Below, one piece after another: positions 3,995 to 56,917 of a stretch of DNA of 64,000 nt. Within the stretch, counting starts at the first letter, position 1; each line of letters begins with the position of its first letter. The stretch is from contig CP136571.1 of NCBI GenBank assembly GCA_035192965.1, positions 1,942,501 to 2,006,500 of the forward strand, written 5' to 3'. This stretch comes from Fuscovulum sp. (lineage in GTDB: Bacteria; Pseudomonadota; Alphaproteobacteria; Rhodobacterales; Rhodobacteraceae). The notes under the pieces were generated by a model. That model was not told the DNA's origin. It made no database searches and saw nothing but the letters and a program-made list of their open reading frames with translations. Both the position numbers and the translations under genes were made by a program.

Positions 3995-4038
3995 TGTAAA
4001 CTTTTTGTTACAGTTGAAAATGTCAACAAAAGATGACA
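3995..4038. promoter_or_regulatory. Tandem PpsR/CrtJ boxes upstream of pucB
   Basis: Two exact matches to TGT-N12-ACA: 3995-4012 (spacer AAACTTTTTGTT) and 4021-4038 (spacer CAACAAAAGATG), separated by 8 bp, about 120-160 bp upstream of the pucB ATG. PpsR (encoded at 52027-53442) binds such paired boxes cooperatively and represses puc under oxygen or strong light. Paired boxes with short spacing are usual for puc and bch promoters. Confidence 0.85.
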
Positions 4039-4323: not shown

Positions 4324-4635
4324 ATGAACAACGCAAAGATGTGGCTTGTCGTCAAGCCGACCGTTGGGGTTCCGCTGTTCCTTTCGGCCGTTGCCGTCGG
4401 GTCTTTCGCCGTCCATGTCGCCGTGCTCAGCAACACGTCATGGGTGGCGGATTTCCTCTCGGGCAAATCCCTTGGAACGGGCACGGCTGCCGCCGCGCTC
4501 GTGCTGCCGGAAGATGGGGTCGCGAAAGCGGCCTATATCCCCGGCGGAGCGCAAGAGGTGCTGATCACCATGCCGGATGGCACCACGGCCCGCGCCGTGT
4601 TGCAGACATCCGAAACGATGGCAGCGCTCGAATAG
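4324..4635 (+). CDS. pucA: LH2 antenna alpha subunit with Phe44-Leu45 and a C-terminal extension
   Basis: Residues 1-47 align without gaps to LH2 alpha: MNNAKMWLVVKPTVGVPLFL, axial His31, Trp40. At positions 44-45, where B850-type complexes have Tyr-Tyr or Tyr-Trp, this protein has Phe-Leu. That pair lacks the hydrogen bonds to the bacteriochlorophyll acetyl groups and is typical of B800-820 (LH3) alpha chains, so a blue-shifted antenna is predicted. The protein is 103 residues against about 54 normally. The extra residues 48-103 begin Gly/Ala-rich and continue with a segment that looks beta-strand-forming (EVLITMPDGTTARAVL); they would lie on the periplasmic side. R. sphaeroides also has one long PucA paralogue, so extension alone is not unique. 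Confidence 0.93.
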   Translation: MNNAKMWLVVKPTVGVPLFLSAVAVGSFAVHVAVLSNTSWVADFLSGKSLGTGTAAAALVLPEDGVAKAAYIPGGAQEVLITMPDGTTARAVLQTSETMAALE

Positions 4636-6928: not shown

Positions 6929-6946
6929 GCTCCGCTTCCCCAAACC

Positions 6947-6982
6947 AAAAGGCGCGCGGCCACCCGCGCGCCTTTTGCTTTT
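6947..6982. terminator. Bidirectional intrinsic terminator at the end of the puc operon
   Basis: Perfect 13-bp stem AAAAGGCGCGCGG (6947-6959) with CCGCGCGCCTTTT (6964-6976) and a 4-nt loop CCAC, followed by GCTTTT. The flanking A and T runs let it work in both directions, for the puc operon from the left and the binding-protein gene (ending at 7026) from the right. Confidence 0.9.
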
Positions 6983-50928: not shown

Positions 50929-50946
50929 TGTCAACCAAAACTTACA
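50929..50946. promoter_or_regulatory. PpsR box at the bchF promoter
   Basis: Exact TGT-N12-ACA (spacer CAACCAAAACTT), 60 bp upstream of the bchF ATG. On the minus strand it contains TTGACA (50934-50929), with TAACCT 16 bp downstream, so PpsR would cover the -35 element of the bchF promoter. The remaining part of the 315-bp divergent region to ppaA (50870-51184) holds the two sites listed next and no gene. Confidence 0.85.
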
Positions 50947-51030
50947 CATTTTGCGGGGGTGTCAATCTTGGGCTAGGGTGGTGGTCGCCACCGAGAAACC
51001 GCTTATTTTATTGGCATTTTCGCGTAAACA

Positions 51031-51044
51031 CTGATCTGGATCAG
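51031..51044. promoter_or_regulatory. FNR-like palindrome in the bchF-ppaA region
   Basis: CTGAT-CTGG-ATCAG is a perfect palindrome that differs from the FnrL consensus TTGAT-N4-ATCAA only in the outer pair. It lies between the two PpsR boxes, 141 bp upstream of ppaA, and could add anaerobic activation to either direction. Confidence 0.5.
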
Positions 51045-51071
51045 GGGTGAGATTTTTCTTTCCGCCGAATG

Positions 51072-51089
51072 TGTCAATTTGCTTTGACA
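51072..51089. promoter_or_regulatory. PpsR box at the ppaA promoter
   Basis: Exact TGT-N12-ACA (spacer CAATTTGCTTTG), 96 bp upstream of ppaA. It includes TTGACA (51084-51089) reading rightward, a possible -35 of ppaA. Distance to the bchF-side box is 126 bp, far more than a tandem pair; looping would be needed for cooperation. Confidence 0.8.
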
Positions 51090-51184
51090 ATCCGAAATCA
51101 AAGGTCGACACTGGATTTGCAATGTTTTTGAGGGGCGGGTAGCCTCTTGTCGCGGCGGCCTGCGGGGGGCCTTTGGAGCCGGAT

Positions 51185-51976
51185 ATGTACCATGAAGCGC
51201 ATCACGGGTCGGCGCACGATACGGCAAGCCCAGTATGCGGCGTGACGAAATTCGCCGCTCAGGTCGTCGCAAAACTCGTCGCGCGCGATGGCGCGGATGA
51301 GGCGGGCCTTCGCGAAATCCTCATCCAGCGTCTGTTCGATGCGGTGACGACTGCCAACCTCAACGCGCTGGATGTGATCAAGCCGGAATTCAAGCGCGCC
51401 CGAATCTCGGCCTCGGCCATGGCGGATCATTACATCCCCGAAGTGGCGCGGCGCCTGGGCACCGCATGGGAAGATGATCAACTTAGCTTTGCAGGGGTCA
51501 CGATGGGCGTTGCGCGCCTTCAAGCCATCCTGCGTGAACTGGGTGCCGCTTGGTCGGCAGATGCGTTGGGGCAGACGGACGGGCCGACCGTCCTTGTCCT
51601 GTTGCCGCAAGGTGAACAGCATTCGCTGGGAACCATGGTGCTTGCGGGGCGTTTGCGTCGCATGGGGGTATCAGTTTCCCTTCAGATCGCGCCCGAGCTT
51701 TCACAGTTGTCGAAATTTGTCGCAGATCGCTCATTCGATGGGGCGATGATCTCGGTAACCTGCCAAAGCAGGCTTGAAACTTGCCGTAAGCTGATAAAAT
51801 CGCTTAAAGATGCCACTAGGGGCAGATTGATGGTGGCAATTGGCGGTGCCATCCTTGATGAAGCCGAAGATGTAGTACGGTTGACAGGTGCCGATGTGGT
51901 GACAAACGATATTTCTCATGCTCTCGAGGCACTGGGTATCTCTGTCGGTCGGTCACCGGTCTTGGAACTGAGTTAA
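51185..51976 (+). CDS. ppaA: PpaA/AerR, B12-binding antirepressor of PpsR
   Basis: 263 residues from the ATG at 51185 (GGAG upstream). The second half, VLVLLPQGEQHSLGTMVLAGRLRRMGVSVSLQIAPELSQL, is a cobalamin-binding SCHIC-type Rossmann domain; the N-terminal ~100 residues are helical and carry FKRARISASAMADHYIPEVARRLGTAWEDD. PpaA/AerR proteins sense light through B12 (and haem in some reports) and relieve PpsR repression. It lies 50 bp before ppsR in the same direction. Product assignment is firm from sequence plus location. Confidence 0.92.
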   Translation: MYHEAHHGSAHDTASPVCGVTKFAAQVVAKLVARDGADEAGLREILIQRLFDAVTTANLNALDVIKPEFKRARISASAMADHYIPEVARRLGTAWEDDQLSFAGVTMGVARLQAILRELGAAWSADALGQTDGPTVLVLLPQGEQHSLGTMVLAGRLRRMGVSVSLQIAPELSQLSKFVADRSFDGAMISVTCQSRLETCRKLIKSLKDATRGRLMVAIGGAILDEAEDVVRLTGADVVTNDISHALEALGISVGRSPVLELS

Positions 51977-52026
51977 CCCTGACGAGGCCTTCGCCCCTCG
52001 GGGCTCGGCTCGGGATCGGAAAGAGT

Positions 52027-53442
52027 GTGACGACGGACGGTAGACATTTGCTCAATGGCGGGAAGTTGCCGCTGATCGCGCCCGATCTCCTGAGCGAGAT
52101 CATCGCGACCGCTTCCGACCTTGCGTTGTTGATTGCTCCGTCGCGGCGCATCATTTCCGTCATCGTGAACCCGCAACACCGCAGCTTTGGCCAACTCACC
52201 GATTGGGAAGGGAGCCAGCTTCGCGATGTGCTGACAGCCGAAAGCCTGCGCAAGCTGGATGCCCGCCTGAACGAAATGCAGGGCGCGCGCCACGGCGGCA
52301 CAGCGGTTGAGCTGAACCATGTGGATGAGGCGAACTGGGAATTCCCGGTTCGCTATTCGCTGCACAGAATCGGGTCGGATGACTCGATCCTGATGATGGG
52401 GCGCGACCTGCGCCCGATCGCCGAGGTGCAGCAGCAACTGGTGCAGGCGCAACTGGCGCTGGAGCGGGATTACGAAACCCAGCGCGAGATGGACACGCGC
52501 TATCGCGTGCTCATGGAAGTATCGCGCGATCCGGTGCTCATGGTGTCCATGTCTTCGGGGCGGATCACCGATATCAACCCGGCAGCGGCGCTGCTTCTGG
52601 GGGGCGTGCGCGCCGATCTGATCGGCACGGCCGTCGCGCAGGAATTCGAAGGCCGTCGTCGTGGCGAGTTTCTGGAAAGCCTCGCAAATCTTGCGGTTGC
52701 GGAAAGCTCTGTCCCCATCGAACTGACGGCGCGCCGCTCGCAGAAACGCATGTTCGTCACCCCCACCGTGTTTCGTGCGGCCGGTGAACGCATTCTGCTG
52801 TGCCAACTGGATACGAATGAACGCGGCACGCTTGGCGGCGATGAGCTGGGCGACAATCTGGCCCGCTTGTATCATGAAGGCGTGGACGGGATCGTTTTCG
52901 CCGATGCCGATGGCAACATCCGCGCCGCGAACGAGGCCTTCCTCAATCTGACCGACACCGCCAACATTGCCGCTGTGCGGGGCCGGTCGCTGACCGATTT
53001 TCTGGCGCGCGGCGCGGTGGACCTGCGCGTCCTGCTCGACAACGTCAAACGCACGGGCCAGCTTCGGCTTTATGCCACGCGGCTGACCACCGATTTCATG
53101 GGCCAGATCGCCGTGGAAATCTCGGCCACTTGGCTCAACGATCGGCCCAGCCCTGTGCTGGTGCTTGTCGTGCGCGATGCCAGCCGGGTGGAAACCCTGC
53201 GCCGCCCGGCCTTTGGCCAACCCGATGACGGCGTGCGCAATGTGATGGAACTGGTGGGGTCCAGCACGCTCAAGGATATCGTGTCGGAAACGACCGACGT
53301 GATCGAAAAGATGTGTATCGAAACGGCGTTGGAACTCACCCGCAACAACCGTGTTGCCGCTGCCGAAATGCTCAGCCTCAGCCGCCAGTCGCTTTACGTG
53401 AAGCTGCGCAAATACGGCTTGCTGAACAAGGATGGCGAATAA
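52027..53442 (+). CDS. ppsR: PpsR/CrtJ, redox-responsive repressor of photosynthesis genes
   Basis: 471 residues from a GTG at 52027; no ATG exists further upstream in frame. Three PAS-like segments (about residues 22-130, 160-265 and 275-385) with a Q-rich linker helix (QQQLVQAQLALERDYE) between the first two, then a Fis-type helix-turn-helix (RNNRVAAAEMLSLSRQSLYVKLRKYGL, about 440-464). The two cysteines that govern redox activity are at 259 (ILLCQLDT) and 430 (EKMCIETA). It binds TGT-N12-ACA, present at five promoters here. Confidence 0.96.
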   Translation: MTTDGRHLLNGGKLPLIAPDLLSEIIATASDLALLIAPSRRIISVIVNPQHRSFGQLTDWEGSQLRDVLTAESLRKLDARLNEMQGARHGGTAVELNHVDEANWEFPVRYSLHRIGSDDSILMMGRDLRPIAEVQQQLVQAQLALERDYETQREMDTRYRVLMEVSRDPVLMVSMSSGRITDINPAAALLLGGVRADLIGTAVAQEFEGRRRGEFLESLANLAVAESSVPIELTARRSQKRMFVTPTVFRAAGERILLCQLDTNERGTLGGDELGDNLARLYHEGVDGIVFADADGNIRAANEAFLNLTDTANIAAVRGRSLTDFLARGAVDLRVLLDNVKRTGQLRLYATRLTTDFMGQIAVEISATWLNDRPSPVLVLVVRDASRVETLRRPAFGQPDDGVRNVMELVGSSTLKDIVSETTDVIEKMCIETALELTRNNRVAAAEMLSLSRQSLYVKLRKYGLLNKDGE

Positions 53443-53551
53443 TCCCGTCATTTCCGGCCTGCGCAGGGTCTCTGGCGCACCGGAATTGATCACCTTTCCG
53501 CCCCGGTTTCCCCGGATGATCTTCTGAAATCCCGCACGGCATTTGGTGGAT

Positions 53552-53565
53552 TTGACATACGTCAA
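53552..53565. promoter_or_regulatory. FNR-like palindrome upstream of bchE
   Basis: TTGAC-ATAC-GTCAA is a perfect palindrome at 53552-53565, about 60 bp upstream of the bchE ATG. It fits a divergent FnrL/DNR-type box (TTGAC rather than TTGAT). Anaerobic activation of the oxygen-independent cyclase would be expected. Alternatively its left half TTGACA is simply the -35 element. Confidence 0.5.
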
Positions 53566-53584
53566 GGCTGCCACCCTTAAAAAC

Positions 53585-53602
53585 TGTCAACCCTGATTTA
53601 CA
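53585..53602. promoter_or_regulatory. PpsR box just upstream of bchE
   Basis: Exact TGT-N12-ACA (spacer CAACCCTGATTT) ending 17 bp before the bchE ATG, so a bound repressor would sit at or after the transcription start. The palindrome CTGATCAG (53603-53610) touches its right edge. Confidence 0.8.
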
Positions 53603-53619
53603 CTGATCAGGGGGCCGTG

Positions 53620-55278
53620 ATGCGGATCGTCTTTATCCACCCGAATTATCACTCTGGCGGGGCCGAAATCGCAGGCAATTGGCCCCCCGCTTGGGTGGCC
53701 TATCTGACAGGTCACCTGCGCCGCGCGGGATTTGACGACATCCATTTCATTGACGCGATGACGCATCACATCGGCCCCGATGACCTGCGCAAACGCCTGA
53801 TCGCCCTCAAACCCGATGTGGTCGGCACCACCGCAATCACCCCCGCCATCTATGAGGCCGAAGAGGTTCTGCGCATCGCGCAAGAGGTCGCCCCCAACGC
53901 CCTGCGTGTGCTGGGCGGAATCCACGGCACCTTCATGTTCCGTCAGGTGCTGGATGAGGCGCCCTGGATCGATGTCATCGTCCGGGGTGAGGGCGAAGAG
54001 ATCATGACGGCCCTCATGGAAGCCCTGCGCGATGGCAAATGGCCGTCCGAGCGGCGTAAGATCAAGGGCATCGCCTTCCTTGACGGCGATCAGATCGTGA
54101 CCACCCCCGCCGCCAGCACGGTGAAGGATCTCGACGCCATTGATCCCGATTGGTCGATCCTGGAATGGGACAAATACATTTACGTGCCTCTGGGCGTGAA
54201 AGTGGCGATCCCCAACATGGCGCGGGGATGCCCCTTTACCTGTTCCTTCTGCAGCCAATGGAAATTCTGGCGCGATTACCGCGTGCGCGACCCCAAGAAG
54301 GTTGCGGATGAAATCGAAAGGCTGGTGAACGATCATGGCGTAGGCTTCTTCATCCTCGCCGACGAAGAACCAACCATCAACAAGAAGAAATTCGTCGAAT
54401 TCTGTCAGGAACTGATCGATCGCGGCCTGAACAAGCGGATCAAATGGGGCATCAACACCCGCGTCACCGACATCTACCGTGACCGTGACCTGCTGAAATT
54501 CTACCGCGAAGCCGGGCTTGTCCATGTCAGCCTTGGAACTGAAGCAGCGGCCCAGTTGAAGCTGGACATGTTCAACAAGGAAACCACCGTCGCCGAAAAC
54601 AAAGAGGCGATCCGCCTTCTGCGTGAGGCTGATATCTTTGTCGAAGCCCAGTTCATCGTGGGTCTCGACAATGAAACCAAGGAAACGCTGGAGGAAACCT
54701 TCCAGATGGCCTGGGACTGGCAGCCCGATCTGGCCAATTGGGCGATGTATACGCCCTGGCCCTTTACGCCGCTGTTTCAGGAAATCCGGGATCAGGTCGA
54801 AGTCTTTGATTATTCGAAATACAATTTCGTCACCCCCATCATGAAACCCGCGGCCTTGACGCGCGGGGAACTGCTGGATGGCGTGATGAAGAACTATCGC
54901 CGCTTCTATATGCGCAAGGCTCTGTTCCATTACCCATGGCGCGGAACCGGCTTCCGGCGGCGCTATTTGCTGGGCTGCCTGAAGGCCTTCCTCAAGGCCG
55001 GGGTAGGGCGCACCTTCTATGATCTTGGCAAGGCGGGCTATTGGGGGCCGCAAACCAAGGGCAAGGTCGATTTCCACTTTGATGAAACCCGCAAGATCGC
55101 CGACGCCCAGATGGCTGATTGGGAGGCGAGTGCCGACCGCGCCGCCAAGGCCGCCGAACGCCGCGCCGCCGTCAAGGAGCAGATGGCCGAGCGCGCGCAA
55201 GAGCGGAACGCCTTCCGGATGCCCGCCGAGGTTTCGGCCTGCGGTGGTGGCAAACAGCAGATGGAGCAAGAGGTCTAA
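53620..55278 (+). CDS. bchE: Anaerobic Mg-protoporphyrin IX monomethyl ester cyclase BchE
   Basis: 552 residues from the ATG at 53620 (a GTG lies one codon earlier). N-terminal B12-binding-type domain ([26 protein letters not shown]) followed by a radical-SAM domain with Cys204-x3-Cys208-x2-Cys211 ([12 protein letters not shown]). The C-terminal tail (~490-552) is a charged helix, Ala/Lys/Glu-rich. It closes ring E using water-derived oxygen under anaerobiosis, complementing AcsF. bchJ follows after 3 bp. Under PpsR and probably FnrL control. Confidence 0.96.
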
Positions 55279-55281
55279 GAA

Positions 55282-55887
55282 ATGGACGGGGGCTATTCAC
55301 CCGCCCCGCCAGAGGCGCGGATCGGGCCCAACGCGATCACTCAGCTGGTTGCCATTCTGGACCGGGCCGAAGGGCGCAGCCTGCGCGATGCGGTGATGGC
55401 ACTGGCGGCGGTCTCCGTGCCCGACCCCGCCAAGGGCATGATCCCCGAAACTGAGGCCGCTGCTGTTCACCTCGCCCTGCGCCGGGTCGCACCCGACCGG
55501 GCCGAGGCACTTCTGCGCCTCGCAGGTCTGGCAACGGGCCGCTACATCCTGCGCCATCGCATCCCACCTTTGGCGCGGACGCTCATCCGGGCGTTGCCAG
55601 CCGCCCTTGGCGCGCGGGTCTTGACCGCCGCCATCTCGCGTCACGCCTGGACTTTCGCCGGATCGGGCCGCTTCCGGGTGACAGGCTGGCATCCCCTGAC
55701 CTTCGAGGTGGCGGCCAATCCACTGGTTGCCCATGAACGCGCCGCACATCCCATCTGCCACTGGCACGCCGCAGTGTTCGAACAGCTGTTCTCAGACTTG
55801 GTCTGGCCGGGATGCACCGTGCGCGAAGTGGGCTGCTGCGCCATGGGCCATCCCGCCTGCCAGTTTCAGATTTTGCCGCGTGGCTAG
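55282..55887 (+). CDS. bchJ: BchJ, V4R-domain bacteriochlorophyll synthesis protein
   Basis: 201 residues. The C-terminal V4R (4-vinyl reductase) domain shows HWHAAVFEQLFSDLVWPGC and REVGCCAMGHPACQFQI with the conserved cysteines. Despite its domain name BchJ is not the vinyl reductase; it is thought to support protochlorophyllide handling or substrate delivery to the chelatase. It lies 3 bp after bchE and 130 bp before bchG, whose PpsR boxes occupy the gap. Confidence 0.92.
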   Translation: MDGGYSPAPPEARIGPNAITQLVAILDRAEGRSLRDAVMALAAVSVPDPAKGMIPETEAAAVHLALRRVAPDRAEALLRLAGLATGRYILRHRIPPLARTLIRALPAALGARVLTAAISRHAWTFAGSGRFRVTGWHPLTFEVAANPLVAHERAAHPICHWHAAVFEQLFSDLVWPGCTVREVGCCAMGHPACQFQILPRG

Positions 55888-55947
55888 GCCCGCTCCGCCC
55901 GATCCAAATGCCAGATCATGGTGTGGACGCCAAAATTCAGCACCGAC

Positions 55948-56016
55948 TGTCAGAAAAAGTTGACACATTGGCGACTGAACTCTTGCTCGACTCCTCAATG
56001 TAAGGTGTAGTTGACG
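55948..56016. promoter_or_regulatory. PpsR boxes upstream of bchG
   Basis: 55948-55965 is an exact TGT-N12-ACA (spacer CAGAAAAAGTTG). 55999-56016 is TGT-N12-ACG, one base off, and ends 2 bp before the bchG ATG, covering its ribosome-binding site. Centres are 51 bp apart, five helical turns, so both could be held by one PpsR tetramer. Confidence 0.75.
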
Positions 56017-56017
56017 A

Positions 56018-56917
56018 ATGAGTGTCAGCATTTCGATACAGTCGCGCCGCTACCCCGAACCAGCCGCCATGTTGCGGCTGATCAAGCCCATTACGTGGTT
56101 CCCGCCGATCTGGGCCTATCTCTGCGGATCGGTGTCCGCCGGGGTGCCGCTCGGCGGCAACTGGGGGATGGTCCTTTTGGGCATGGTGCTTGCCGGGCCG
56201 ATCGTCTGTGGCATGAGCCAGGCCGCCAACGATTGGTGCGACCGCCATGTCGATGCGGTTAACGAACCTGACCGCCCGATTCCGTCAGGCCGCATTCCGG
56301 GCCGCTGGGGCCTTTACATCGCCCTTGCCATGACCGCGCTCAGCCTTTGGGTTGGCTCGCTCCTCGGCACCTGGGGGTTCTGGGCCACCGTGGTGGGCGT
56401 CATCGCCGCCTGGGCCTACAGCGCCGAACCTGTGCGGCTGAAACGGTCGGGCTGGTGGGGGCCGGGGCTTGTTGGCCTGTCTTATGAAGGGCTGCCCTGG
56501 TTCACCGGGGCGGCGGTCCTGCTGCAAGCCGCGCCACGGTTTGAAATCGTGATCATCGCGCTTCTCTATTCCATCGGCGCACATGGCATCATGACGCTGA
56601 ATGACTTCAAGGCGCTGGAAGGCGACCGTCAGCATGGCGTCCGCTCTTTGCCCGTGATGCTTGGCCCCGAAGTCGCGGCCAAGATCGCCTGCACGGTGAT
56701 GGGCATGGCGCAGGCGCTGGTGATCCCGCTCTTGGCCCTGTGGGGCAAGCCGTGGCACGCGCTGGGTGTCTTTGCCGTCCTTCTGTTGCAAATCGCCGCG
56801 ATGCGCGTCCTGTTCCGCGATCCCAAAGGCAAGGCGCCTTGGTATAACGGCACCGGCGTGGTGCTTTATGTCACCGGGATGATGATTTCCGCCTTTGCCC
56901 TGCGGGGTCTGGCATGA
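56018..56917 (+). CDS. bchG: Bacteriochlorophyll synthase (prenyltransferase) BchG
   Basis: 299 residues, UbiA family. The first Asp-rich motif NDWCDRHVDAVNEPDRPIPSG lies at residues 71-91 and the second, NDFKALEGDRQHGVRSLPV, near 193-211. About eight membrane helices. It esterifies bacteriochlorophyllide a with geranylgeranyl diphosphate. First gene of the rightward bchG-pucC-like-bchP-idi set; overlaps the next gene by 4 bp. The early M at 18 would truncate the N-terminus, so 56018 is kept. Confidence 0.96.
   Translation: MSVSISIQSRRYPEPAAMLRLIKPITWFPPIWAYLCGSVSAGVPLGGNWGMVLLGMVLAGPIVCGMSQAANDWCDRHVDAVNEPDRPIPSGRIPGRWGLYIALAMTALSLWVGSLLGTWGFWATVVGVIAAWAYSAEPVRLKRSGWWGPGLVGLSYEGLPWFTGAAVLLQAAPRFEIVIIALLYSIGAHGIMTLNDFKALEGDRQHGVRSLPVMLGPEVAAKIACTVMGMAQALVIPLLALWGKPWHALGVFAVLLLQIAAMRVLFRDPKGKAPWYNGTGVVLYVTGMMISAFALRGLA

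Follow-up and report, generated by a model that had tools for sequence, protein, structure and literature searches.

A four-gene puc operon of Fuscovulum sp. with a predicted short-wavelength LH2 and a conserved fourth gene, a candidate for a gamma-type LH2 subunit

The puc operon lying in our 64,000-nucleotide window of Fuscovulum sp. DNA (the whole stretch analysed) is probably a four-gene unit of the roseobacter 'LH4' or 'high-800' LH2 type, with a predicted merged absorption band near 803-806 nm and a fourth gene, P4, whose product would most likely be a gamma-type accessory. The biology is ordinary for the aerobic phototrophs of this group and is partly in print, and most of what concerns the spectrum is already known and would supply no more than a further member of the Rhodobacteraceae type; what was not expected is P4, which is conserved and is a candidate for an LH2 subunit of the gamma type. 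Should P4 indeed be a subunit of LH2, a component is missing from the present picture of the antenna in a large group of aerobic phototrophs, and gamma belts occur far more widely than the literature has it.

Table 1. Features of the puc operon, in coordinates of the window
Feature	Position	Strand	Basis
TGT-N12-ACA box upstream of pucB	3995..4012	+	motif scan
Second TGT-N12-ACA box, upstream of pucB	4021..4038	+	motif scan
pucB, LH2 beta, 51 aa	4158..4313	+	ORF, Pfam
pucA, LH2 alpha, 103 aa	4324..4635	+	ORF, Pfam, PDB match
Val41 codon (Tyr41 in LH3 1ijd)	4444..4446	+	sequence
Phe44-Leu45 codons TTC CTC	4453..4458	+	sequence
PucA C-terminal extension, residues 48-103, PDG motif between two predicted strands	4465..4632	+	
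pucC, assembly factor, PF03209	4764..6257	+	Pfam; start codon chosen by the analysts
P4, fourth operon gene, 209 aa	6299..6928	+	ferredoxin-like domain 1-110, C-terminal repeats
Intrinsic-terminator-like hairpin, 14 pairs, after the pucBAC-P4 unit	6946..6977	+	

The operon is compact (Table 1), with P4 starting 41 bp past pucC and ending 17 bp ahead of the terminator-like hairpin. The boxes upstream of pucB, which we take to be PpsR/CrtJ-type operators, are of a form found 15 times within the window as against 5.67 expected; a cluster of five at 50929-56040 perhaps marks the start of further photosynthesis genes. The complete genome (one 4.23-Mb contig) has two alpha/beta pairs above the PF00556 cut-off, and the second (C1:2020568-2020820) is that of LH1, with an alpha over the NCBIfam pufA cut-off and pufL- and pufM-like reading frames downstream. 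The first-pass annotation had called this the only visible puc operon; with one puc-type and one LH1 pair genome-wide the statement now extends to the whole genome, and the search that it proposed for further pucA copies with Tyr-Tyr found none there. A PucA search of a plasmid collection gave no match. By its gene content the complete genome thus resembles those of the single-band LH2 class in having a sole peripheral LH, and the LH2 of this operon would be the cell's only peripheral antenna.

PucA has the marks of an LH2 alpha chain, namely an LHC domain (PF00556, residues 3-41 of the 103, E 4e-13), His31, Trp40 and a place in a pucBA pair with pucC behind it. In a phmmer search of the PDB it aligns with the R. 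sphaeroides LH2 alpha (7pbw) over residues 1-48 without gaps, bearing out the gap-free alignment of residues 1-47 described in the first-pass annotation: His31, Trp40 and Gly47 are the same in both, and Phe-Leu stands at positions 44-45 in place of Tyr-Tyr. The top PDB match in this search is the PucD-LH2 of Rps. palustris (7ze3). Residue 41 is Val, and Ser27 is present; these two residues, the C-terminal extension and P4 go beyond what the first-pass annotation noted. The Phe-Leu pair is natural to LH3, as had been said, the 1ijd alpha chain reading Y41 F44 L45; alignment with the LH2 and LH3 alphas is nevertheless divided in its message, since PucA shares F44 L45 with 1ijd but has Val41, as in 7ze3, where LH3 has the Tyr41 donor to the alpha-B850 acetyl. 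The F44L45 pair is likewise that of the roseobacter-type single-band LH2.

Phe-Leu is the common state among relatives and no oddity of this organism. PucA matches at E 0.001 in 56 of 394 genomes of the family, of which 54 were kept, one being spurious (G144) and one having PucA in two frames and no P4 (G296). Positions 44-45 are Phe-Leu only in 42 of the 54 and Tyr-Leu in three; the other nine have Tyr-Tyr, Tyr-His, Tyr-Trp or Phe-Tyr/Tyr-Tyr. When family genomes and the best 80 of 219 named relatives are taken together (one spurious row set aside), 89 of the 99 distinct extended PucAs are Phe-Leu and all 89 have Val41, in a tally that leans, through its named part, to close, extended types. 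The remaining ten comprise five with Phe41-Phe44-Ala45, four with Tyr41-Tyr44-Leu45, and one, from Tateyamaria pelophila (L112), with Val41-Tyr44-Leu45. Since the Phe-Leu pair recurs through many relatives, it is more than chance. The PucAs of L123, L125, L128, L131 and L137 combine His39-Trp40-Phe41 with Phe44-Ala45, not Phe-Leu, and carry the same extension. Tyr44-Leu45 is found at L094, L102, L116, L049 and L112; four distinct PucAs of this kind also have Tyr41, so that donors at 41 and 44 go together, and we predict from these residues that the Tyr44-Leu45 forms are redder than the Phe-Leu type.

The extension that follows Gly47 is present in 89 of 90 distinct Phe-Leu PucAs (the best 80 of 219 named relatives included), the exception having 66 aa (L052). 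Its Asp85-Gly86 is invariant in the 78 rows of alignment A2 (PucA, P0001, plus 77 relatives; 78 distinct, one identical to P0001). It evolves faster than the core and is still constrained, with a median dN/dS of 0.33 vs 0.03 among those pairs, 53 of 4560, whose divergence is in the usable range. AlphaFold models PucA poorly (mean pLDDT 63), with a hairpin formed by residues 77-82 and 88-93. Extra tails past Gly47 are also a feature of Rubrivivax gelatinosus, Rps. palustris PucAb/c and R. sphaeroides Puc2A. The accessible part of PMC5069747 describes the Rhodopseudomonas tails as polyproline/polyalanine and links that of Rubrivivax to LH2 assembly, whereas PucA has instead a conserved PDG motif flanked by two predicted strands, a type of extension not named in what our literature search on LH2 alpha extensions returned. 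At L062, L063 and L066 there are Puc2A-like alphas, 263-326 aa long, which carry Ala/Glu/Pro repeats together with a similar C-terminal stretch, some 55 residues in length.

P4 is conserved along with the operon. At the loci of the best 80 of the 219 named relatives pucB, pucA and pucC are present in 80 of 80, and P4 in 63 by tblastn and in 75, behind pucC, by HMM; two of the five others end at contig edges (L078 and L125) and three have room for the gene (L099, L110 and L112). Among the 394 family genomes 47 have P4, 46 of them with PucA and one as a decayed remnant, while PucA occurs without P4 in ten (two being the unusable G144 and G296). In G126 (L170) the puc operon is decayed, with a 238-residue piece of pucC, a P4 split over two frames and no puc pair found. 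Some genomes have two P4-family genes, a long and a short one standing in tandem at L180, and second matches lying on other contigs in G185, G378 and G001.

Within the family P4 is found in 42 of 42 Phe-Leu genomes vs 4 of 12 others (Fisher p 5e-7, uncorrected for kinship and too small a value because the genomes share ancestry). A belt strictly tied to Phe-Leu was considered and rejected, as P4 is also carried by three Tyr-Leu genomes and one Tyr-His genome; the Tyr-Trp genome G365 has no P4. A single operon lineage, simply inherited as a whole, may account for the co-occurrence. Across the class, the P4 profile matches 21 of 385 genomes, our own included. LH genes are present in nine of the 20 outside the family, and seven of these nine (G457, G488, G491, G540, G638, G717 and G730) have the P4 match no more than 550 bp from an LH alpha/beta pair. 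Several C-terminal units can be made out by eye in six of these seven, and one or two in G488; among the other 13 matches the 12 that are readable all look, by eye, like generic YflT-like proteins. The alphas beside the seven relatives read Phe-Leu twice, Phe-Ile once, Phe-Phe in three genomes (two of them with two copies) and Tyr-Trp once, with donors absent at 44-45 in six of the seven.

In its build P4 falls into two parts. Residues 1-110 are modelled by AlphaFold as an alpha/beta, ferredoxin-like domain (block means of 82-96 pLDDT), and the chain beyond about residue 110 is almost all coil (49-57). The coil part is constrained like the folded domain (median dN/dS 0.32 vs 0.29, from 33 of 45 pairs) and contains RTSAIRG at residues 151 and 177, a period of 26 for which 0 of 200 shuffles scored as high. 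C-termini are periodic in 51 of the 75 proteins tested (no more than 2 of 200 shuffles reaching the score, one short protein being set aside), in 41 of the 51 at 25-26 residues. Sixteen long members of 342-369 aa have periods of 25 (13 proteins) or 15 (three). With a unit pattern that was composed after viewing the sequences, 12 of the 13 at period 25 have eight units spaced exactly 25 residues, the remaining one having seven units and a blank slot, and a degenerate C-terminal unit is matched in 12 of the 13. Eight units and the degenerate one would make nine, as many as the subunits of a nonameric LH2. All 13 come from Rhodobacteraceae-type or unplaced alphaproteobacterial records, and their unit count may be inherited.

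This architecture recalls the gamma subunit, a ribbon of six repeats whose Ser residues bind six extra bacteriochlorophylls, and which the accessible text of PMC9618040 places only in Rhodopseudomonas. The P4 family and the Rps. palustris gamma, RPA1495 (7zcu_S), have in common an extended repeat chain, a P-L-[LI]-x-[KR] motif recognized by eye, and the LH2 context. They differ in that RPA1495 has 97 aa, six copies of a 16-residue repeat and no N-terminal domain, whereas the evenly spaced repeats of P4 are mostly of 25-26 residues, and of 15 in three members.

The P4-like protein of G638 (L190) has the Rps. palustris gamma as its top PDB match (E 0.006 over 90 residues). We scored 13 models on gamma, with 1000 shuffled and 1000 periodically permuted versions of it as controls, and L190 alone beat all controls (0 and 0 as high), none of the 12 other models doing so. 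Control counts, given as shuffles and permutations, were 1 and 6 for the G540 relative, 3 and 12 for that of G717, 17 and 73 for that of G457, and 18 and 78 for that of G730; they were 3 and 3 for profile A4 (P0004, which is P4, with 60 of 63 homologs; alignment A3 has 34 of the 63) and 1 and 51 for profile A5. Among six single Rhodobacteraceae members L098 gave 32 and 53, four gave hundreds (one of them the window's own P4, at chance level with 419 and 395), and L109 had no score. Gamma was not found by hmmsearch of the PDB with A4 and A5 or by phmmer with L109, and matches to designed TIM barrels in the PDB search were rejected as a product of repeats. Run in the other direction, gamma has three weak matches in the 385 class genomes, one of which is the G638 frame adjoining LH2 genes; the other two are in small genomes of one other family, and as one of these scores better than the G638 frame, the result is mild support. 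P4 is thus like gamma in architecture and context, and homology is not established, because only L190 beats the controls while the profiles, L109 and P4 itself do not.

A serious alternative, to which we give somewhat less than an even chance, is that P4 serves in assembly, the stress response or regulation and is no subunit of the ring, with a YflT/PII-like head and repeats that only bind the membrane or PucC transiently. It draws on a weak match to YflT (PF11181) in 10 of 35 members (best E 6e-4, and no match for P4 itself) and on structural matches that link the N-terminal domain to various alpha/beta folds, PII and CutA among them, at Z 7-8, a level that the search tool calls common; unrelated folds score at that level too, so no function can be read from these matches. 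The domain has no Foldseek match at E 0.001. NCBIfam has none for P4 (E up to 0.1) or five relatives, nor has Pfam for P4, two long members or L190, L098 having one weak and unrelated Pfam match. The strict spacing of the repeats, the purifying selection on the extended part and the adjacency of relatives outside the family to LH2 pairs all argue against a role of this kind. A literature search to which subscription papers were largely closed returned no description of P4.

We regard a gamma-type accessory of LH2 as the most likely role for P4. The folded N-terminal domain would stay on the cytoplasmic side, the extended C-terminal repeats would follow the outer face of the ring, with one repeat for each alpha-beta unit, and they may add bacteriochlorophylls near 800 nm. 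More tentatively still, as a proposal with perhaps one chance in three, P4 may found a widespread alphaproteobacterial family of gamma-type LH2 belts with a ferredoxin-like head, an interfacial repeat for each alpha-beta unit and bacteriochlorophylls absorbing at about 800 nm. Were that so, a long P4, with its eight strict 25-residue units and one C-terminal unit, would encircle the nonamer completely, and the H-bond-poor ~805-nm LH2 of aerobic phototrophs would as a rule have such a belt, which would then be no speciality of Rhodopseudomonas.

For the pigments themselves, PMC9618040, in the part drawn on here, relates the C3-acetyl H-bonds to absorption, two giving about 850 nm, one about 825 nm and none about 800 nm. 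PucA offers no side-chain donor at 41, 44 or 45 to the C3-acetyls of the B850 bacteriochlorophylls, and through this loss, we propose, the B850 ring would shift to the blue until merged with B800 near 803-806 nm. The blue shift foreseen in the first-pass annotation is therefore well supported by the residues as a prediction, donors being absent, whereas its B800-820 label is weakened: Tyr41 is the source of the one H-bond remaining in LH3 (PMC9897067, PMC6988754, PMC9618040, as far as these texts were accessible), and as residue 41 here is Val, a merged band at ~803-806 nm is likelier than one at ~820 nm. The single ~805-nm roseobacter type, which the annotation had named as an alternative, is the better fit. 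The 2025 review PMC12654162, citing another paper, ascribes F44L45 to the single-band LH2 of aerobic phototrophs in the part available to us, and lists bands at 804 nm for D. shibae (also given in PMC10890935) and 806 nm for R. litoralis and R. mahoneyensis. The Rps. palustris PucD-LH2, with V41 F44 M45, has one peak at 803 nm (PMC9618040; the running text there swaps residues 44 and 45, the figure legend and the 7ze3 chain do not). The link from motif to band for F44L45 thus rests on published cases in other organisms; literature on the relatives yielded no near-infrared spectrum of this one.

An LH3-like B800-820/826 antenna, in which both acetyl bonds are lost through F44L45 and the band stops near 820-826 nm, is the less likely outcome, at something like one chance in four, albeit one with good precedents. 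F44 L45 is present in 1ijd, and the R. sphaeroides Y44F/Y45L mutant is, as the earlier annotation had it, a B800-826 complex (PMC9618040, in the portion consulted); like PucA this mutant is without Tyr at 41, and its Ser27 bond is intact. All 78 rows of A2 keep Ser27, which makes 826 nm a serious rival value here; PucD, by contrast, has Val27. The 802-nm band with an 850 shoulder given for Roseicyclus elongatum in the same part of PMC12654162 also counts against the 803-806 nm reading. Set against this, LH3 relies on the Tyr41 that PucA replaces with Val, and the aerobic phototroph LH2s assigned F44L45 sit at 804-806 nm. Because Ser27 is kept throughout and yet the R. sphaeroides mutant with Ser27 goes no further than 826 nm, these natural PucAs are a test of which other factors bring the band to ~805 nm, the matter of the triple mutant being left open in PMC9618040 as far as its accessible text goes.

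It is improbable that the operon is carried yet hardly expressed, the cells showing only LH1: KR11, a freshwater relative at family level, has an 866-nm band alone in the partial account that we drew on, whereas here the four-gene unit is intact, with two operator-like boxes, a terminator-like hairpin and purifying selection. An ordinary B800-850 LH2, its acetyl bonds coming from other alpha or beta residues such as the beta-Trp of Phs. molischianum, is very improbable, for although beta-Trp donors occur in some LH2 and PucB ends in PWLG, Table 1 of PMC9618040, as accessed, lists no such bonds for the beta chains of R. sphaeroides and Rps. palustris, and the literature examined, in part, places no LH2 with stated F44L45 near 850 nm.

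The nearest known antennas to the merged-band LH2 that we predict are those of Roseobacter denitrificans and R. litoralis, Dinoroseobacter shibae and Roseicyclus mahoneyensis ('LH4', high-800), which share F44L45 according to the accessible part of PMC12654162; like this organism they are aerobic phototrophs in which this LH2 is the sole peripheral antenna, the complex here being known from its genes. The puc operon of D. shibae spans four locus tags, Dshi_2897-Dshi_2900, regulated with the photosynthesis genes (PMC10890935, from the section available), and here there are the four genes pucB-pucA-pucC-P4. The Rps. palustris PucD-LH2 (7ze3) resembles PucA in V41, F44 and the want of a donor at 45, and it also carries the gamma belt; it differs in Met45, in Val27 rather than Ser27 and in an alpha of 59 aa, and is one of several LH2 types of that organism, made in low light (PMC9618040, as cited above). 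The B800-820 LH3 of Rbl. acidophilus 7050 (1ijd) has the same F44 L45, but differs from PucA in having the Tyr41 donor instead of Val41 and a 53-aa alpha without the long extension.
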